The position numbers and the translations under genes were made by a program. This document shows, in pieces, positions 1,676 to 41,915 of a stretch of 64,000 nucleotides of DNA. The notes below the pieces were generated by a model. It was given only the letters and a program-made list of their open reading frames with translations. It searched no databases and was not told the origin of the DNA. Location of the stretch: positions 480,031 to 544,030 of the forward strand of contig NZ_CP059195.1 in the NCBI RefSeq assembly GCF_014251695.1, read 5' to 3'. The stretch's first letter is position 1. Each line of letters opens with the position of its first letter. This DNA is from Blattabacterium cuenoti (GTDB taxonomy: Bacteria > Bacteroidota > Bacteroidia > Flavobacteriales > Blattabacteriaceae).

Positions 1676-1715
1676 ATAAACGAAAAAAAGAGTATATACT
1701 CTTTTTTTCGTTTAT
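1676..1715. terminator. Bidirectional terminator, perfect 40-nt palindrome
   Basis: A perfect 20+20 inverted repeat is centred on GAGTATATACTC, with seven-base A and T runs flanking the core in each arm. Either strand gives a hairpin with a U-rich 3' side. It sits between the convergent lipoprotein and rplS genes, and its last base is the outer base of the rplS stop codon. Confidence 0.8.
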
Positions 1716-2059
1716 TAACTTTTTACTCTTGCCTTTTTCCCTCTTAGAGATCTAAAATAATAAATTTTAGATCTTCTAACTTTTCCTTTTTTGTTTACTT
1801 CTATTTTTCGTATGTTAGGCTGATTAAAGATGAATATGCGTTCTATTCCTATCCCTGCACTTATTTTACGAATAGTAAATGTTTTAGTTAATCCTTTTCC
1901 TTGTTTTTTTATAACCACACCTTTGAAAGATTGAACTCTTTTTTTTTCTCCTTCTTTAATTTCGAAAAAAATAGTGATTGTATCTCCTGAATAAAACAAT
2001 GGAAAATGATTTTTAGATAAAAATTTATCTTCTGTGTATTTTATAATATTTTGAGACAT
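1715..2059 (-). CDS. rplS: 50S ribosomal protein L19
   Basis: L19 is a large-subunit protein at the 30S-50S interface. The 114-residue product has the family's usual length. It shows the conserved FYSGDTITIFFEIKEGEKKR stretch near residues 22-41, then QSFKGVVIKKQGKG, TFTIRKISAGIGIERIF and the basic tail RSKIYYFRSLRGKKARVK. It is the last gene of the minus-strand series beginning upstream with glmM (22-base gap) and terminates in a palindromic hairpin shared with the convergent lipoprotein gene. Confidence 0.98.
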   Translation of the reverse strand: MSQNIIKYTEDKFLSKNHFPLFYSGDTITIFFEIKEGEKKRVQSFKGVVIKKQGKGLTKTFTIRKISAGIGIERIFIFNQPNIRKIEVNKKGKVRRSKIYYFRSLRGKKARVKS

Positions 2060-20058: not shown

Positions 20059-22128
20059 ATGTCCTGCAATATTATAAAAAAATCTATAAAATATTTAAAA
20101 GGATTAAGTTTAAAGAAAGCTTATTTATTTAATACGGAATTAAACCTTTATACATACGAAGATTTACTTTTTTTTTATCCTAAAGGATATATGCATATAT
20201 CTACATTAAAAAATATATCAGAATTATCAAATAATAATAATAATAATTTTATACAAATACTAGGGAAAATAACTAAGATTGAAGAAATAAACTATAAAAA
20301 TAAAAAAGGAAAAATGTTAATAGCATATTTGGAGGATAAAACAGGTTTTATTGAATTAGTTTGGTTTCAAAAAAATAATTTTGTAAAAAATATAACAAAA
20401 AACATCACAGTTATAGTTTCTGGAAGAGTTAAATATTTTAAAAATAAAATTCAAATCATTCATCCAAATATTAAAGAATTTCATTCTTCAATAAAGAATC
20501 ATTCTGTATTTCCTGTATATTCCATTCCTAAAAATTTAAAAGAAAAAGGAATCAATAATTCTTTTATGATTAATGTATTACAAAATCTCATAAAAGAGTT
20601 AAAAAATAACATAAATGAATTTTTTTTTCAAGATTTTCTTAATAAAAAATTAATGTCAAGAAAAAAAGCTTTAGTTCAAATTCATTTTCCAGAATCTTTA
20701 GACTCCTTATTACAAGCACAACATTCTTTAAAATTTGAAGAGTTATTCTTATTGAAACTATTTTTTTTATCTAAAAAAAAAGTAGCCTATAGTTCTCCTT
20801 TTACAAAATTAGGAAAAAATTTTCATGATTTTTACAAATATTTTATCCCTTTTCCTTTAACAGAAGAACAAAAAAAAGTATTTAAAGAAATATGGAATGA
20901 TTTGAAAAAACCTATCCAAATGAATCGATTATTACAAGGAGAAGTGGGGTGTGGAAAAACTATCATAGCTGTGTTATCGATGCTTGTAGCTTTAGATAAT
21001 GGATTTCAAACTTGTTTGATGGCTCCTACTGAAGTTTTAGCCATACAACATTATTATTCTATAAAAAAAATGTTTTCAAAAATTGGAATTAAAATAGCTT
21101 TATTAACAAGTTCTATTTCGGATTCTATACGAAAATCTCTTTATAATGAAATATTAACAGGAAAAATTTCTGTTATAATAGGAACACATTCTTTAATTCA
21201 AGAAAAAGTTAGATTCCAAAATCTTGGATTAGCAATAATAGATGAAGAACAACGTTTTGGAGTAGAACAAAGAGAGAAAATTTGGAAAAAAGATGATAAA
21301 CCACCTCATATTTTAATTATGACAGCGACCCCTATCCCTAGAACTTTAGCAAAAATTATTTACCATGATTTAAATATTTCTATTATAAAAAAACTGCCTT
21401 TAGGAAGAAAACCTATTAAAACTATTCATTTTTGGAATAAAAATAGGGATAAAGCTTTTAAAATAGTGAAAGATCAAATTTCAATAGGGAGGCAAATTTA
21501 TATTATATATCCCACCATAAATACTTCTATGAAATATCAAAATTTAATGAAAGGATATCAGGAGATGAAATATAGGTTTCAAAATTTTGAAAATGAAATT
21601 GGAATTTTGCATGGAAAAATGAATTTTCAAGAAAAAAATATACAAATTAACCGATTTTTACGTGGAAAAACTAAAATTTTAATAGCAACTACAGTAATAG
21701 AAGTAGGAGTTAATGTTCCTAACGCATCAGTTATTTTAATAGAAAATGCAGATTTTTTCGGATTATCTCAATTGCATCAATTAAGAGGAAGAGTAGGAAG
21801 AGGGATTCACGAAAGTTACTGTATTCTTATTACTGATCATAAGATCAGTGTAGAAGGTCTTTTCAGAATAAAAAAAATGTGTGAAACAAATAAAGGATTA
21901 GAAATTGCTAAAGAAGATCTAAAATTACGTGGAGGAGGAGATTTGATAGGAACTAAACAAAGTGGAAAAAATTATTTTCGTATTATAAATTTGGTAAAAG
22001 ATTATAAATTAATAAAAGAAGTTTTTCCAATTGCTAAAATTTTTTTTCAGAAAAATCCTAATTTTTTAAAAAATACAAAAAATATTTTTTATGAAAACTA
22101 TAAAAAGAAATGGGAAATTTATAAATAA
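20059..22128 (+). CDS. recG: ATP-dependent DNA helicase RecG
   Basis: A branch-migrating helicase that remodels stalled forks and Holliday junctions. The N-terminal wedge (OB fold, about residues 60-160) is followed by helicase motifs: LLQGEVGCGKTIIA (Walker A, near 295), MAPTEVLAIQH, IIDEEQRFGVEQRE (DEEQ box), MTATPIPRTLAKII, IATTVIEVGVNVPNASVI and HQLRGRVGRGIHES. Length 689 matches the family. An AAT microsatellite encodes a run of Asn near residue 60. The stop codon shares one base with the next start (TAATG). Confidence 0.98.
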   Translation: MSCNIIKKSIKYLKGLSLKKAYLFNTELNLYTYEDLLFFYPKGYMHISTLKNISELSNNNNNNFIQILGKITKIEEINYKNKKGKMLIAYLEDKTGFIELVWFQKNNFVKNITKNITVIVSGRVKYFKNKIQIIHPNIKEFHSSIKNHSVFPVYSIPKNLKEKGINNSFMINVLQNLIKELKNNINEFFFQDFLNKKLMSRKKALVQIHFPESLDSLLQAQHSLKFEELFLLKLFFLSKKKVAYSSPFTKLGKNFHDFYKYFIPFPLTEEQKKVFKEIWNDLKKPIQMNRLLQGEVGCGKTIIAVLSMLVALDNGFQTCLMAPTEVLAIQHYYSIKKMFSKIGIKIALLTSSISDSIRKSLYNEILTGKISVIIGTHSLIQEKVRFQNLGLAIIDEEQRFGVEQREKIWKKDDKPPHILIMTATPIPRTLAKIIYHDLNISIIKKLPLGRKPIKTIHFWNKNRDKAFKIVKDQISIGRQIYIIYPTINTSMKYQNLMKGYQEMKYRFQNFENEIGILHGKMNFQEKNIQINRFLRGKTKILIATTVIEVGVNVPNASVILIENADFFGLSQLHQLRGRVGRGIHESYCILITDHKISVEGLFRIKKMCETNKGLEIAKEDLKLRGGGDLIGTKQSGKNYFRIINLVKDYKLIKEVFPIAKIFFQKNPNFLKNTKNIFYENYKKKWEIYK

Positions 22129-24272
22129 TGAGTAACCCCATGAATTCTCTAAATAGTTCTCAACGTAAAATTATAGAAACTATTAATGGCCCCATACTAG
22201 TTCTTGCTGGAGCAGGATCAGGAAAAACTCGTGTTATTACACACCGGATTATTCATATGATTCAAAATATAGGAATATCTCCTTCTAATATATTGGCTTT
22301 AACTTTTACCAAAAAAGCTGCTCAAGAAATGAAAAATCGTATTTCTAACATGATAATGGAACAAATAGATTTTCATAAAATAACACTAGGAACTTTTCAT
22401 TCTATATTTTCCAGTATTCTAAGAAAAGAATCTCATTGGTTAGGATTCAAATCAAATTATACTATCTATGACCATAAGGATTCAGAAAATGTCATAAAAC
22501 AAATATTAAAAGATATAAACATAGATATATCCTTGAATTATAAAGAAATAAGAATCAGAATTTCTAAGTATAAAAATAATTTGTATTATTTATATAATAA
22601 TAAATTAAAGGATAAAAAATTAGAATTTTTTACTAAAATTTATAAATGTTATATGAAACGTTGTTTTCAAGCAAATGCATTAGATTTTGACGATATATTA
22701 CTTCATACCAATCATTTGTTTCTTTATTTTCCAAATGTACTTAAAAAGTATCAAAAAAAATTTAAATACATATTAATTGATGAATATCAAGATACTAATT
22801 TATCTCAATATACTATTATAAAAAATTTAGTTTCTATGCATAAAAATCTTTTTGTAGTAGGAGATGACGCTCAAAGTATTTATGCTTTTCGTGGAGCTAA
22901 TATTTCCAATATTTTAAATTTTCATATCGATTATCATAATGCTAAAATTTTTCGTTTAGAACAAAATTATCGTTCTACTAACCATATAGTACAAGCTTCT
23001 AACAGCATTATTTCTTTTAATAAAAATCAAATCATAAAAAAAATATGGACAAATAATGAAAAAGGAGAAAAAATTCAAATATATTGCGCTTCTTCTGAAT
23101 CAGAAGAAGCGCAATATATTGCTTCTTCTATTCTATCAATAAAAAGAAAAAAAAATTTACAATTTGAAAACTTTGCGATTCTTTATAGAGCAAATATACA
23201 ATCACATATTATAGAATCTTATCTAAAAAAGAAAAACATTCCATATCATATATATGGTTCCATTTCGTTTTTTAAACGAAAGGAAATTCGGGATCTTTTA
23301 GCTTATTTAAGAGTTATTGTCAATCCAAATGATGAAGCATCTTTATTACGCATTATAAAAAAAGTAAATCAAAAAATATTAAAAAATATATTAAGTTTAT
23401 CTAAAAAAAAAGAAAATACAATTTACAGTGTAATAAAAAATATTGAAAATTATAAACATTTATTGAAAATAAATAATAAAACAATAAATAAATTTACAAG
23501 TTTATTTTTTACAATAGAAAAATTACGTGTTAACGCAACACAAGATAATGCATACATAGTAGTGAAAAAATTGCTTAATTTTTTATTAAAAAAAAATTAT
23601 AACAATTATAATCATGAAGATTTTAAATATATACTTGATCATATATTTCAATACGTTAAAGAACAAAAAAAATTAAAAAATAATGGAGATACAAGTTTAT
23701 TTGGTTTTTTACAATGTTTTTATTTAGAAATAAATGAAGATATCAATCATAAAAAAAATGAAAGGAATAAAGTGTCATTAATGACAGTTCATTTATCCAA
23801 AGGATTAGAATTTTCCATTGTTTTTATTGCAGGATTAGAAGAAAATTTGTTTCCATCAAAATCTAGTTTTGAAAATCAGTTAAAAATAGAGGAAGAACGT
23901 CGTTTATTTTATGTTGCTTTAACTAGAGCACAAAAAAAAGCAGTGCTTACTTATGCTAAGTATAGATTTATATGGGGTGAAAAAAAAGAAAATATCCCTA
24001 GTCGTTTTATTAACGAACTTAATAAAAATTTTATTGATATAGAAAATCATAAATATATATCCAAAAAAAAAGAAATTCATTCTTTGAATCATTTTAATCA
24101 TGAAAATTCTAAATATTTAGAAATTAAAAAAGGAATAAAAGTTTTTCATAAAAATTTCGGAGTAGGAACCATTGTAGAATTACAAAATCAAAATAAAATA
24201 GCTTTAATCAAATTTCAGAAATCGGGAGAAAAAAGAATTTTTCTAAAATTGGATAAACTTGTTATTTACTAA
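22128..24272 (+). CDS. UvrD/PcrA-type superfamily 1 DNA helicase
   Basis: A 3'-5' helicase of mismatch/excision repair and replication restart. All SF1A motifs are present in order: Q motif LNSSQRKII, Walker A LAGAGSGKTRVITHRI, DEYQDTN, FVVGDDAQSIYAFRGAN, LEQNYRST, MTVHLSKGLEFSIVFIAG and RLFYVALTRAQKK. The C-terminus FHKNFGVGTIVEL is the Tudor-like RNA-polymerase-binding tail of PcrA proteins. Length 714 is typical. A perfect 43-nt palindrome lies inside the gene (23078-23120), encoding part of motif region ASSESEEAQYIASS. Translation starts on the last base of the recG stop. Confidence 0.97.
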   Translation: MSNPMNSLNSSQRKIIETINGPILVLAGAGSGKTRVITHRIIHMIQNIGISPSNILALTFTKKAAQEMKNRISNMIMEQIDFHKITLGTFHSIFSSILRKESHWLGFKSNYTIYDHKDSENVIKQILKDINIDISLNYKEIRIRISKYKNNLYYLYNNKLKDKKLEFFTKIYKCYMKRCFQANALDFDDILLHTNHLFLYFPNVLKKYQKKFKYILIDEYQDTNLSQYTIIKNLVSMHKNLFVVGDDAQSIYAFRGANISNILNFHIDYHNAKIFRLEQNYRSTNHIVQASNSIISFNKNQIIKKIWTNNEKGEKIQIYCASSESEEAQYIASSILSIKRKKNLQFENFAILYRANIQSHIIESYLKKKNIPYHIYGSISFFKRKEIRDLLAYLRVIVNPNDEASLLRIIKKVNQKILKNILSLSKKKENTIYSVIKNIENYKHLLKINNKTINKFTSLFFTIEKLRVNATQDNAYIVVKKLLNFLLKKNYNNYNHEDFKYILDHIFQYVKEQKKLKNNGDTSLFGFLQCFYLEINEDINHKKNERNKVSLMTVHLSKGLEFSIVFIAGLEENLFPSKSSFENQLKIEEERRLFYVALTRAQKKAVLTYAKYRFIWGEKKENIPSRFINELNKNFIDIENHKYISKKKEIHSLNHFNHENSKYLEIKKGIKVFHKNFGVGTIVELQNQNKIALIKFQKSGEKRIFLKLDKLVIY
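23078..23120. repeat. Perfect 43-nt palindrome inside the uvrD/pcrA coding region
   Basis: Two 21-base arms are perfect reverse complements around a single central A at 23099. The inner part of the left arm reads TTGCGCTTCTTCTGA and the right arm TCAGAAGAAGCGCAA, followed outward by AT-rich AATATA/TATATT. The reading frame is intact across it. The arms are G+C-richer than their surroundings and would form a very stable hairpin in mRNA or single-stranded DNA. Confidence 0.95.
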
Positions 24273-38829: not shown

Positions 38830-38896
38830 TTTTTTTTATTTAAAAAAATTTTTTGAGTATTTATTTATAATGATTGGATTCATTTTCGAAGAAAAT

Positions 38897-38920
38897 AAAA
38901 ACAATTTTTATATTGTTTTT
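38897..38920 (+). promoter_or_regulatory. Hairpin in the leuS upstream region
   Basis: AAAAACAAT and ATTGTTTTT form a nine-base stem with a six-base loop, 70 bases before the leuS ATG. The 3' arm ends in five T, so it resembles a weak terminator or leader hairpin. No T-box sequence elements are seen. Regulatory meaning is a guess. Confidence 0.25.
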
Positions 38921-38990
38921 CAGAAAAAAATTAAAATTACGTAATAAAATCATTGTAATATTTATATGCATAGTCTTAAAAAAAATAAAA

Positions 38991-41774
38991 ATGGAATATA
39001 ATTTTCGTGAAATAGAAAAACGTTGGCAAAGATACTGGAAAAAACATAACGTATTTCATGCAAAAGAGAATAAAAAAAGAAAATACTATATTTTGAATAT
39101 GTTCCCTTATCCTTCTGGAACTGGCCTTCATGTAGGACATTGTTTAGGATATATAGCCTCAGATGTTTATGCTAGATATAAACTTGCAAAAGGATATAAT
39201 GTTTTAAATCCTATAGGATTTGATTCTTTTGGACTTCCTGCAGAACAATATGCTATACAAACTGGAAAACATCCTTGCGATACTATTATTGAAAATTCAC
39301 GAAGATACAAAGAACAAATGAATAAAATAGGACTTTCTTTTAATTGGAATAGAGAAGTATATACTAGCAATCCTAATTATTATCATTGGACTCAGTGGAT
39401 GTTTATTCAAATTTTTAATTCTTGGTACGATAAAAATAGTGAACAAGCTAAACCTATAAATCTTTTGATTGAAGAATTTAATAAAAAAGGAAATAATTTT
39501 ATTAACGCAAGTACTACGTCAAATTATAAATTCAATTCAACAACATGGAAACAATTAAATTCATATGAAAAAGAATCTATTCTTCTAGATTATAGATTAG
39601 CTTTTTTATGTAAAAATACAGTTAATTGGTGTCCAAATTTAGGAACAGTATTAGCTAATGATGAAATAAAAAACGGAAAAAGTGAAAGAGGTGGGTATCC
39701 TGTTTATAAAAAAAAAATGTTACAATGGCATATAAGAATTAGTGCATATGCAGAAAGACTTATAAAAGGATTCAATCTTATTGATTGTTCTCAATCTTTG
39801 AAAAGATTACAATGTAATTGGATAGGAAAATCAATAGGGACTTCTATTTTATTAAAAATTATTTATCCTATTAGTGGATTTCATAAAATTGAATTATTTA
39901 CTTTTTATCCAGAAATGATGTTTGGAATGACTTTCATTATATTATCTACAGATCATCCACTTGCAGATAAAATAAGTATTTTTTCTTTACACCACAAAAA
40001 TGTTTTAACATATCTTAATAAAGAATTTTCTGTAGATGTAAATTCAAAAAATATTTCGGGAATTTTTACAGGAAATTATGTTCTCCATCCTTTTATTAAG
40101 GATAAAAAGATTCCTATTTACATTAGTAATTTTTTTACTATAAATAATACAACAAAATCTATAATAGGAATACCTGGACATGAAGAAAAAAGTAAAAAAT
40201 TTGCCCAAAAATTTAATATAGAAATTGTAAAAGTTTTAGATTTTAATGAAAAGTGTATTAATTCTAATTTTTTAAATGGATTAAATCGTCAACAAGCAAA
40301 AGAAAAAATAATAAAAATTTTAATAAATAATAAAATAGGAGAAATTAAAATTAGTTATAAAATTCGTGATTCTATTTTTTCCAGACAAAGATATTGGGGA
40401 GAACCAATTCCAATTTATTTTAAAAATAAAATTCCAAAAACGATTCCCATAGATAAATTACCTATAATCCTTCCAAAAATAGATAATTTTCATCCTAAAA
40501 ATGGAAAATCTCCATTAGTTAGAGCTAAAAATTGGGCTTGGGATGAACAAAATATGAAGATAGTTCCTAATTTTCTTATTGATCATAAATATGTGTTTCC
40601 AATAGAGACGAATACAATGCCTTGTTGGGCGGGATCAAGTTGGTATTTTCTTAGATATATGGATGTACATAACAATCGATTTTTTCTTGAAAAAGAAAAA
40701 GAAAATTATTGGAAAAATGTTGATTTATATATTGGGGGTTCTGAACATAGTACTGGTCATTTGATTTATGCGAGATTTTGGCATAAATTTTTATTTGATA
40801 GAGGATGGGTAACTACTGATGAGCCTTTCAAAAAAATATTAAATCAAGGAATGATTTTGAGTTATTCTGCTATAATACTCAAAGTGATAGGAGAAAATAT
40901 CTTTATGTCTTATGGATTAAAAAATAAAAAACACACATATTCTTCTTTTCAAGAAATATATGTAGATCTTTCTTTAATTAAAAAGAACAATGAATTAGAT
41001 ATTTATAGGTTTAAAAAATGTAGACCTGAATTTTATTCATCTGTTTTTATTTTAGAAAGAGGAGTTTTTATTTGTAAAAGAAAATTAGAAAAAATGTCAA
41101 AATCTAAATATAATGTAATAAATCCTGATGATATTTATGAAAAATATGGATCAGATATATTTCGTATGTATGAAATGTTTTTAGGTCCTATTAATAAATC
41201 TAAACCTTGGGATGAAAAAAAAATAAATGGTATAAAAAATTTTATAAATAAATTTTGGTCTTTATTTTATAAAAATAAAATTTTTCAAGTAAGTGAAATC
41301 AATCCAACATTACAAGAATTTCAAATTTTACATGATACTATAAAAAAAATAGAAAATAAGATGGAATCTTTTTCTTGGAATAGTTCTATTAGTTTATTAA
41401 TGATTATGACTAATAAATTAACTGCGTTAAAATGCAATAAAAGAAAAATATTAGAACCTTTAGTTCAACTTATCGCTCCATTTGCACCTCATATATCCGA
41501 AGAATTATGGTATAAACTGGGTAAAAAAAAATCTATTATATTTTATAATCTTCCAGTTTTTAATAAAAAATATATAGTGAAAAAAGAAATAACATATCCG
41601 ATTATGTTTAATGGAAAATTAAAATTTTTGGAAAAATTTGATTCTAGCACTTCAATAGAAAATATAAAAAATAAAATATTGAATCATCCTAAAACAAAAT
41701 TGTTTTTGAAAGAAAAAACCTTAAACAAATTTATTTTAATACCTAAAAAAATAATCAATATTTTATTAAAATAA
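38991..41774 (+). CDS. leuS: Leucyl-tRNA synthetase
   Basis: It charges tRNA-Leu. The start is the ATG at 38991, giving MEYNFREIEKRWQRYW and 927 residues; the frame is open 39 codons further upstream, but only from a TTG and without family similarity. Class I motifs are FPYPSGTGLHVGHCLGY (HIGH) and KMSKSKYN (KMSKS, near residue 703). The editing domain contains LSTDHPLAD, the tRNA-linked DPFG-like region SGLPAEQ equivalent reads FGLPAEQYA, and APHISEELW marks the anticodon domain. Confidence 0.97.
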   Translation: MEYNFREIEKRWQRYWKKHNVFHAKENKKRKYYILNMFPYPSGTGLHVGHCLGYIASDVYARYKLAKGYNVLNPIGFDSFGLPAEQYAIQTGKHPCDTIIENSRRYKEQMNKIGLSFNWNREVYTSNPNYYHWTQWMFIQIFNSWYDKNSEQAKPINLLIEEFNKKGNNFINASTTSNYKFNSTTWKQLNSYEKESILLDYRLAFLCKNTVNWCPNLGTVLANDEIKNGKSERGGYPVYKKKMLQWHIRISAYAERLIKGFNLIDCSQSLKRLQCNWIGKSIGTSILLKIIYPISGFHKIELFTFYPEMMFGMTFIILSTDHPLADKISIFSLHHKNVLTYLNKEFSVDVNSKNISGIFTGNYVLHPFIKDKKIPIYISNFFTINNTTKSIIGIPGHEEKSKKFAQKFNIEIVKVLDFNEKCINSNFLNGLNRQQAKEKIIKILINNKIGEIKISYKIRDSIFSRQRYWGEPIPIYFKNKIPKTIPIDKLPIILPKIDNFHPKNGKSPLVRAKNWAWDEQNMKIVPNFLIDHKYVFPIETNTMPCWAGSSWYFLRYMDVHNNRFFLEKEKENYWKNVDLYIGGSEHSTGHLIYARFWHKFLFDRGWVTTDEPFKKILNQGMILSYSAIILKVIGENIFMSYGLKNKKHTYSSFQEIYVDLSLIKKNNELDIYRFKKCRPEFYSSVFILERGVFICKRKLEKMSKSKYNVINPDDIYEKYGSDIFRMYEMFLGPINKSKPWDEKKINGIKNFINKFWSLFYKNKIFQVSEINPTLQEFQILHDTIKKIENKMESFSWNSSISLLMIMTNKLTALKCNKRKILEPLVQLIAPFAPHISEELWYKLGKKKSIIFYNLPVFNKKYIVKKEITYPIMFNGKLKFLEKFDSSTSIENIKNKILNHPKTKLFLKEKTLNKFILIPKKIINILLK

Positions 41775-41915
41775 ATTTGTTTAAAATGAACTTTTATTTT
41801 AATCCATTTCGATATAGATTAAAATTTCTACATAAAATGTAGATTTGTACTCAATAATTTAGCATTCATTTTTGTATTTTTTTTCATTCTATAGAAATGT
41901 ATAAAAACTTTTTTT

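Follow-up and report, generated by a model that had tools for sequence, protein, structure and literature searches.

A perfect 43-nt palindrome in the uvrD/pcrA gene of Blattabacterium: a probable case of template-switch correction of an inherited coding quasi-palindrome

Why does the coding sequence of a conserved helicase contain a long palindrome without a single error? In Blattabacterium cuenoti, positions 23078-23120 of the window (the whole stretch of 64,000 nucleotides that was analysed, 480031-544030 of a single-contig genome of 630,624 bp) form an exact 43-nt palindrome, with 21-nt arms that are 100% complementary and a spacer of 1 nt. An earlier sequence-only reading had described this palindrome as perfect within an intact frame and as richer in G+C than its surroundings, and both descriptions hold: the 714-aa ORF is uninterrupted, and the arms have a G+C content of 33%, compared with 22.3% in the gene and 25.5% in the genome. 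The same reading considered the repeat very unlikely by chance and proposed an mRNA hairpin, a protein or structure site in the DNA, templated mutation by strand switching, or an assembly artefact as its possible meanings. These proposals are weighed below, and the features on which the argument depends are compiled in Table 1.

Table 1. Window coordinates of the host gene, the palindrome arms, the informative bases and the overlapping repeat.
Feature	Position	Strand	Remarks
uvrD/pcrA helicase gene, 714 aa, intact	22128..24272	+	ORF and Pfam
Left arm, AATATATTGCGCTTCTTCTGA	23078..23098	+	Codes for (Q)IYCASSE
Centre base, A (A23099)	23099..23099	none	
Right arm, TCAGAAGAAGCGCAATATATT	23100..23120	+	Codes for SEEAQYI
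Third base of Cys320 (TGC), synonymous	23087		Partner of 23111; most congeners have T
Third base of Ala328 (GCG), synonymous	23111		Mirror of 23087; most congeners have A
Second base of Ser325 codon TCA	23101		Single base perfecting the arms relative to sister G016 (TTA, Leu)
Overlapping second inverted repeat, AGAAGAAGC-(10 nt)-GCTTCTTCT	23102..23129	+	Read from the sequence

The product of the host gene matches the Pfam families UvrD-helicase (5.4e-84) and UvrD_C (1.6e-63). The palindrome begins at the last base of the Gln317 codon and runs to Ile331 (codons 317-331), encodes the peptide QIYCASSESEEAQYI, and sits between the conserved helicase blocks QNYRST (279-284) and TVHLSKGLE (about 553-561). 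The motif recurs a third time 3' of the palindrome, as GCTTCTTCT in the IASS codons, which gives the right arm two possible pairing partners and may turn the site into a hotspot of switching.

For comparison, we used 36 congeners of similar genome size together with free-living relatives of the same order; G000 denotes the genome carrying the perfect palindrome, and G016 and G019 its sister genomes. Orthologues of uvrD/pcrA are present in 33 of the 36 congeners, with identities of 55-84%. Of the other three (G025, G033 and G036), two have no UvrD/PcrA match and the third has only a weak match to another helicase, while the match in G031 (L017) has a TAA codon in frame and is truncated. Some lineages of the genus seem to have lost the helicase or to carry a decaying copy.

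The orthologous 43 nt were collected from 34 genomes of the genus, including G000. The arms have no mismatch in G000, one in G016, two in G019 and G005, and from 3 to 11 in the remaining genomes, so that the sisters G016 and G019 keep 20/21 and 19/21 pairs at the same codons. The peptide IYCASSExEEAQYI is found with variations throughout the genus. In 20 free-living relatives the quasi-palindrome is absent, with 8-19 mismatches, close to what unrelated sequence gives. Judged from these alignments, the quasi-palindrome is a feature of the genus that many lineages carry and that is weak or lost in others. The sister G016 is one base short of perfection, having TTA instead of TCA. At 23087 and 23111, G000 and G019 have C and G, whereas most congeners, including G016, have T and A; this difference is paired and doubly synonymous (TGC..GCG versus TGT..GCA).

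How much of the symmetry is due to the protein, how much to codon choice, and how much could be chance? Among perfect inverted repeats of G000 with spacers of at most 8 nt, the uvrD palindrome is the longest located wholly within an ORF and the second longest overall. Permuting codons among synonymous positions within each gene, which keeps the proteins and each gene's codon set, gave arms of 21 nt or longer in about 1/200 shuffled genomes (0.005 per genome). Given the peptide and the codon usage of the genome, perfect symmetry has a probability of 0.0017. The peptide alone, nevertheless, implies an expected 16.0 of the 21 pairs, and codon choice adds the remainder. Taken together, these two figures divide the problem into two puzzles: a stretch of protein that is nearly palindromic, and codons that complete its symmetry. 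Given each species' own protein, codons are biased towards pairing in 32 of the 34; the species are related and do not amount to 34 independent cases. When every possible centre was scanned for symmetry driven by codons, the uvrD site did not stand out, because the protein already supplies most pairs. The claim that chance is very unlikely is thus borne out by the calculated probability and the shuffled genomes, but it is qualified by the share of the symmetry held by the protein and by in-frame palindromes of similar size elsewhere in the genome (for example, one with 20-nt arms in the gene 277917-278933). The related claim, that the symmetry came from codon choice with the protein left unchanged, stands for the remainder supplied by codons; it does not stand for the pairs given by the protein, nor for relatives in which mirrored changes replace both residues (Cys/Gln to Ser/Glu or Leu/Arg).

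On a uvrD tree built without the palindrome site, we counted the minimum number of changes for each column and each column pair, and took left plus right minus pair as the changes falling on shared branches. The mirror columns have 16 shared-branch changes, compared with a mean of 7.2 under permutation (P=0.002) and with 9 for the best slid pairing; when the permutation is restricted to columns of the same codon position, the excess persists (P=0.007). Covariation between mirror positions in alignment A1 is 0.110, against 0.063 (sd 0.007) after shuffling and at most 0.072 in slid pairings. The individual cases are of both kinds, synonymous pairs and paired amino-acid replacements. G024, G027 and G032 have TCT/AGA where others have TGT/ACA (Ser and Glu instead of Cys and Gln), and G024 has three mirrored bases within the arms. 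In G002, CTA/TAG replaces TGT/ACA (Leu and Arg), as part of three adjacent mirrored bases, CTAGC/GCTAG for TGTGC/GCACA; genome-wide, no lineage-specific excess of substitutions stands beside this triple change. G014 and G004 have TAC with CAG or CGG instead of TAT with CAA. None of these six lineages played a part in choosing the site. Sign tests on independent pairs were underpowered for single uvrD columns.

In-frame perfect inverted repeats with arms of at least 14 nt number 11 in G000, 12 in G016 and 11 in G019, compared with about 1.3 in each by synonymous shuffling. The repeats are scattered along genes, with no clustering at gene ends. By spacer, the excess is 2.7-fold at 0-2 nt, 2.2-fold at 3-5 nt, about 2-2.4-fold up to 12 nt and 1.2-1.4-fold beyond; an excess that is strongest at short spacers is the pattern expected of a hairpin-mediated process. 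For arms of 8 nt, the excess is 1.05 and 1.12 in two free-living relatives, against 1.35-1.45 in the genus, the free-living samples comprising about 170-180 kb of coding sequence each, with numbers too few for long arms. Of all 39 sites, most reach perfection in a single lineage and fall short of it in the others, which at 10% divergence is expected either way. Where a repeat is perfect in one lineage only, substitutions in that lineage are not raised (0.058 versus 0.054 per nt), and double changes that keep a pair show a modest enrichment genome-wide that is inconsistent across genome pairs.

Three further coding palindromes were traced across 30 species, in genes whose sequences suggest thiamine pyrophosphokinase, murB and lysS. 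The palindrome of the putative thiamine pyrophosphokinase, which is old and widespread, exhibits mirrored change (P = 0.012/0.003), and those of murB and lysS give no mirrored-change signal. The first is a 46-nt quasi-palindrome at gene nt 399-444 of G000:C1:27319-27945 (L251; orthologues L252-L280), with 23/23 pairs in four congeners and near-perfect pairing in most of the 30; its synonymous conservation is 0.88, versus about 0.75 in the rest of the gene. The murB-like gene has a perfect in-frame inverted repeat at G000:C1:278792-278833, with 20-nt arms and a 2-nt spacer, which is imperfect in 29 congeners.

On these observations, we consider the uvrD palindrome to be probably an inherited coding quasi-palindrome that has been corrected by template switching, and not a functional signal (probability of about 0.6). 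Of the four origins proposed beforehand, templated mutation is the one best supported, by the inherited quasi-palindrome, the mirrored changes and the short-spacer excess. The starting point is the near-inverted-repeat DNA that encodes IYCASSExEEAQYI. During replication, the nascent strand would fold back, or the polymerase would jump, and one arm would serve as template for the other, such that a change in one arm would be copied to its mirror position. The co-changes of mirror positions on shared branches, synonymous and amino-acid-replacing alike, are what such copying would leave, and G000 now has all 21 pairs, beside 20 in G016 and 19 in G019. The palindrome would have no function by itself and would be tolerated since the protein remains workable. 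Our confidence is held at this level because no lineage-specific burst is seen, because the genome-wide double changes are modest and inconsistent, and because murB and lysS lack the signal. At the present divergence, templating would not be separable from slow stepwise change, and an origin in a single event is unproven.

The enzymes that process hairpins and ends could also bear on this reading. In profile searches, SbcD and RecJ had no match in any of 37 genus genomes, and SbcC and XseA had none in the 23 searched for them; G000 does have MutS and RNase Y. A role for the loss of SbcC/SbcD/RecJ/ExoVII-type enzymes in promoting arm correction is only suggestive, because the sensitivity of the nuclease profiles is uneven in the phylum, several free-living relatives being likewise without matches. 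As a wider and tentative proposal, which we regard as rather doubtful, template switching in these reduced genomes, which lack matches to several hairpin- and end-processing nucleases, would be frequent enough to drive paired amino-acid changes in conserved proteins across the genus, and the arms of coding palindromes such as those of uvrD and thiamine pyrophosphokinase would have undergone concerted evolution for as long as the symbiosis has existed.

The main rival to templating remains coincidence, in which the peptide happens to be near-palindromic, codon usage is A+T-rich, and point mutation and drift completed the symmetry by luck. The 16.0 pairs implied by the protein are in its favour, as are a probability of completion of about 0.002 given that protein, the many genes and genomes open to inspection, and the missing burst. 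It does not account for the mirrored co-changes in six lineages that are independent of the choice of the G000 site, nor for the genome-wide excess of in-frame repeats over a null that preserves proteins, and we judge it possible but unlikely. An mRNA hairpin under selection because it alters translation or decay, with RNase Y as one conceivable agent, is improbable. Its predicted stem is strong in G000 (-28.1 kcal/mol for 43 nt; z = -7.7 for 103 nt), compensatory pairs are present and the genome encodes RNase Y; yet nothing connects that enzyme with the palindrome, and the predicted stem energy is just -4 to -8 kcal/mol in six congeners. In pairs 1-19, 86 cells are unpaired against 19 that are G-U, so G-U pairs are not preferred as intermediates. 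Many congeners have lost the symmetry, codon identity at the same amino acid is an ordinary 0.77 within the site versus 0.74 and 0.76 in the flanks, and no T-run follows the stem. An intrinsic terminator was also considered and rejected, given the mid-gene position and the downstream sequence GCTTCTTCTATTC, which contains no T-run.

A selected DNA site, either a cruciform or the target of a dimeric protein, is very improbable: the symmetry is perfect and the predicted DNA hairpin reaches -20.6 kcal/mol, but the genome holds a single copy, with no further one besides its own reverse strand, and the sequence drifts among congeners until it is gone in several (up to 11 mismatches), with the same ordinary synonymous conservation. 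An assembly or sequencing artefact is hardly credible, because, although palindromes can disturb assembly, as reported in Blochmannia (PMC3017870), the frame is intact, the protein is normal and the independent assemblies of the sisters have 19-20/21 pairs at the same codons.

The uvrD palindrome is probably a further case of a known process, instead of a new kind or system. A survey of bacterial genomes placed Blattabacterium among the outliers in inverted-repeat frequency at a given G+C (PMC10434271), and homogenisation of arms through template switching is well known from phage, E. coli and yeast; in yeast it has been followed within coding genes, where amino acids were replaced (PMC8604942). 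With quasipalindrome correction, or template-switch mutation, as described by van Noort et al. 2003 (cited in PMC10434271) and with E. coli reporters (PMC7202029), our case shares an imperfect short-spacer inverted repeat, arms that become more alike and a genome-wide excess of perfect repeats; it differs in being seen as an evolutionary pattern and not as a measured mutation. With the yeast genes (PMC8604942), it shares in-gene homogenisation of arms and neighbouring amino-acid replacements. The yeast strains let single events be placed on branches, whereas here the uvrD events cannot be dated because even sister genomes differ by about 10%. The coding palindromes of Nematomorpha mitochondria (PMC6649704) are likewise perfect inverted repeats in open frames of small genomes, but they are numerous and reach 284 bp, compared with 43 nt in uvrD. 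RNA hairpins proposed to originate and be maintained by template switching (PMC8794818) also involve compensatory double changes explained by templating and not by selection on intermediates; the uvrD case differs in that its gene codes for protein and nothing points to a function as RNA. The uvrD palindrome itself is a curiosity. It is a probable instance of a mutational process shaping a protein, in which residues change in pairs owing to their mirrored DNA, a pattern that can pass for compensatory or positive selection. With over 30 genomes, the genus allows this mutational shaping of protein to be measured.

Three other long repeats of this genome lie at gene ends. The longest perfect inverted repeat with a spacer of at most 8 nt, at G000:C1:251077-251135 (26-nt arms, 7-nt spacer), lies at the end of the ORF 251122-251928. 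In the window, a perfect spacerless 40-nt palindrome at 1676-1715 comes just past the stop codon of ORF 1715-2059 (minus strand) and resembles a bidirectional terminator, and perfect 21-nt arms 22 nt apart at 41721-41784, across the end of the ORF 38874-41774, are probably a terminator overlapping the stop.
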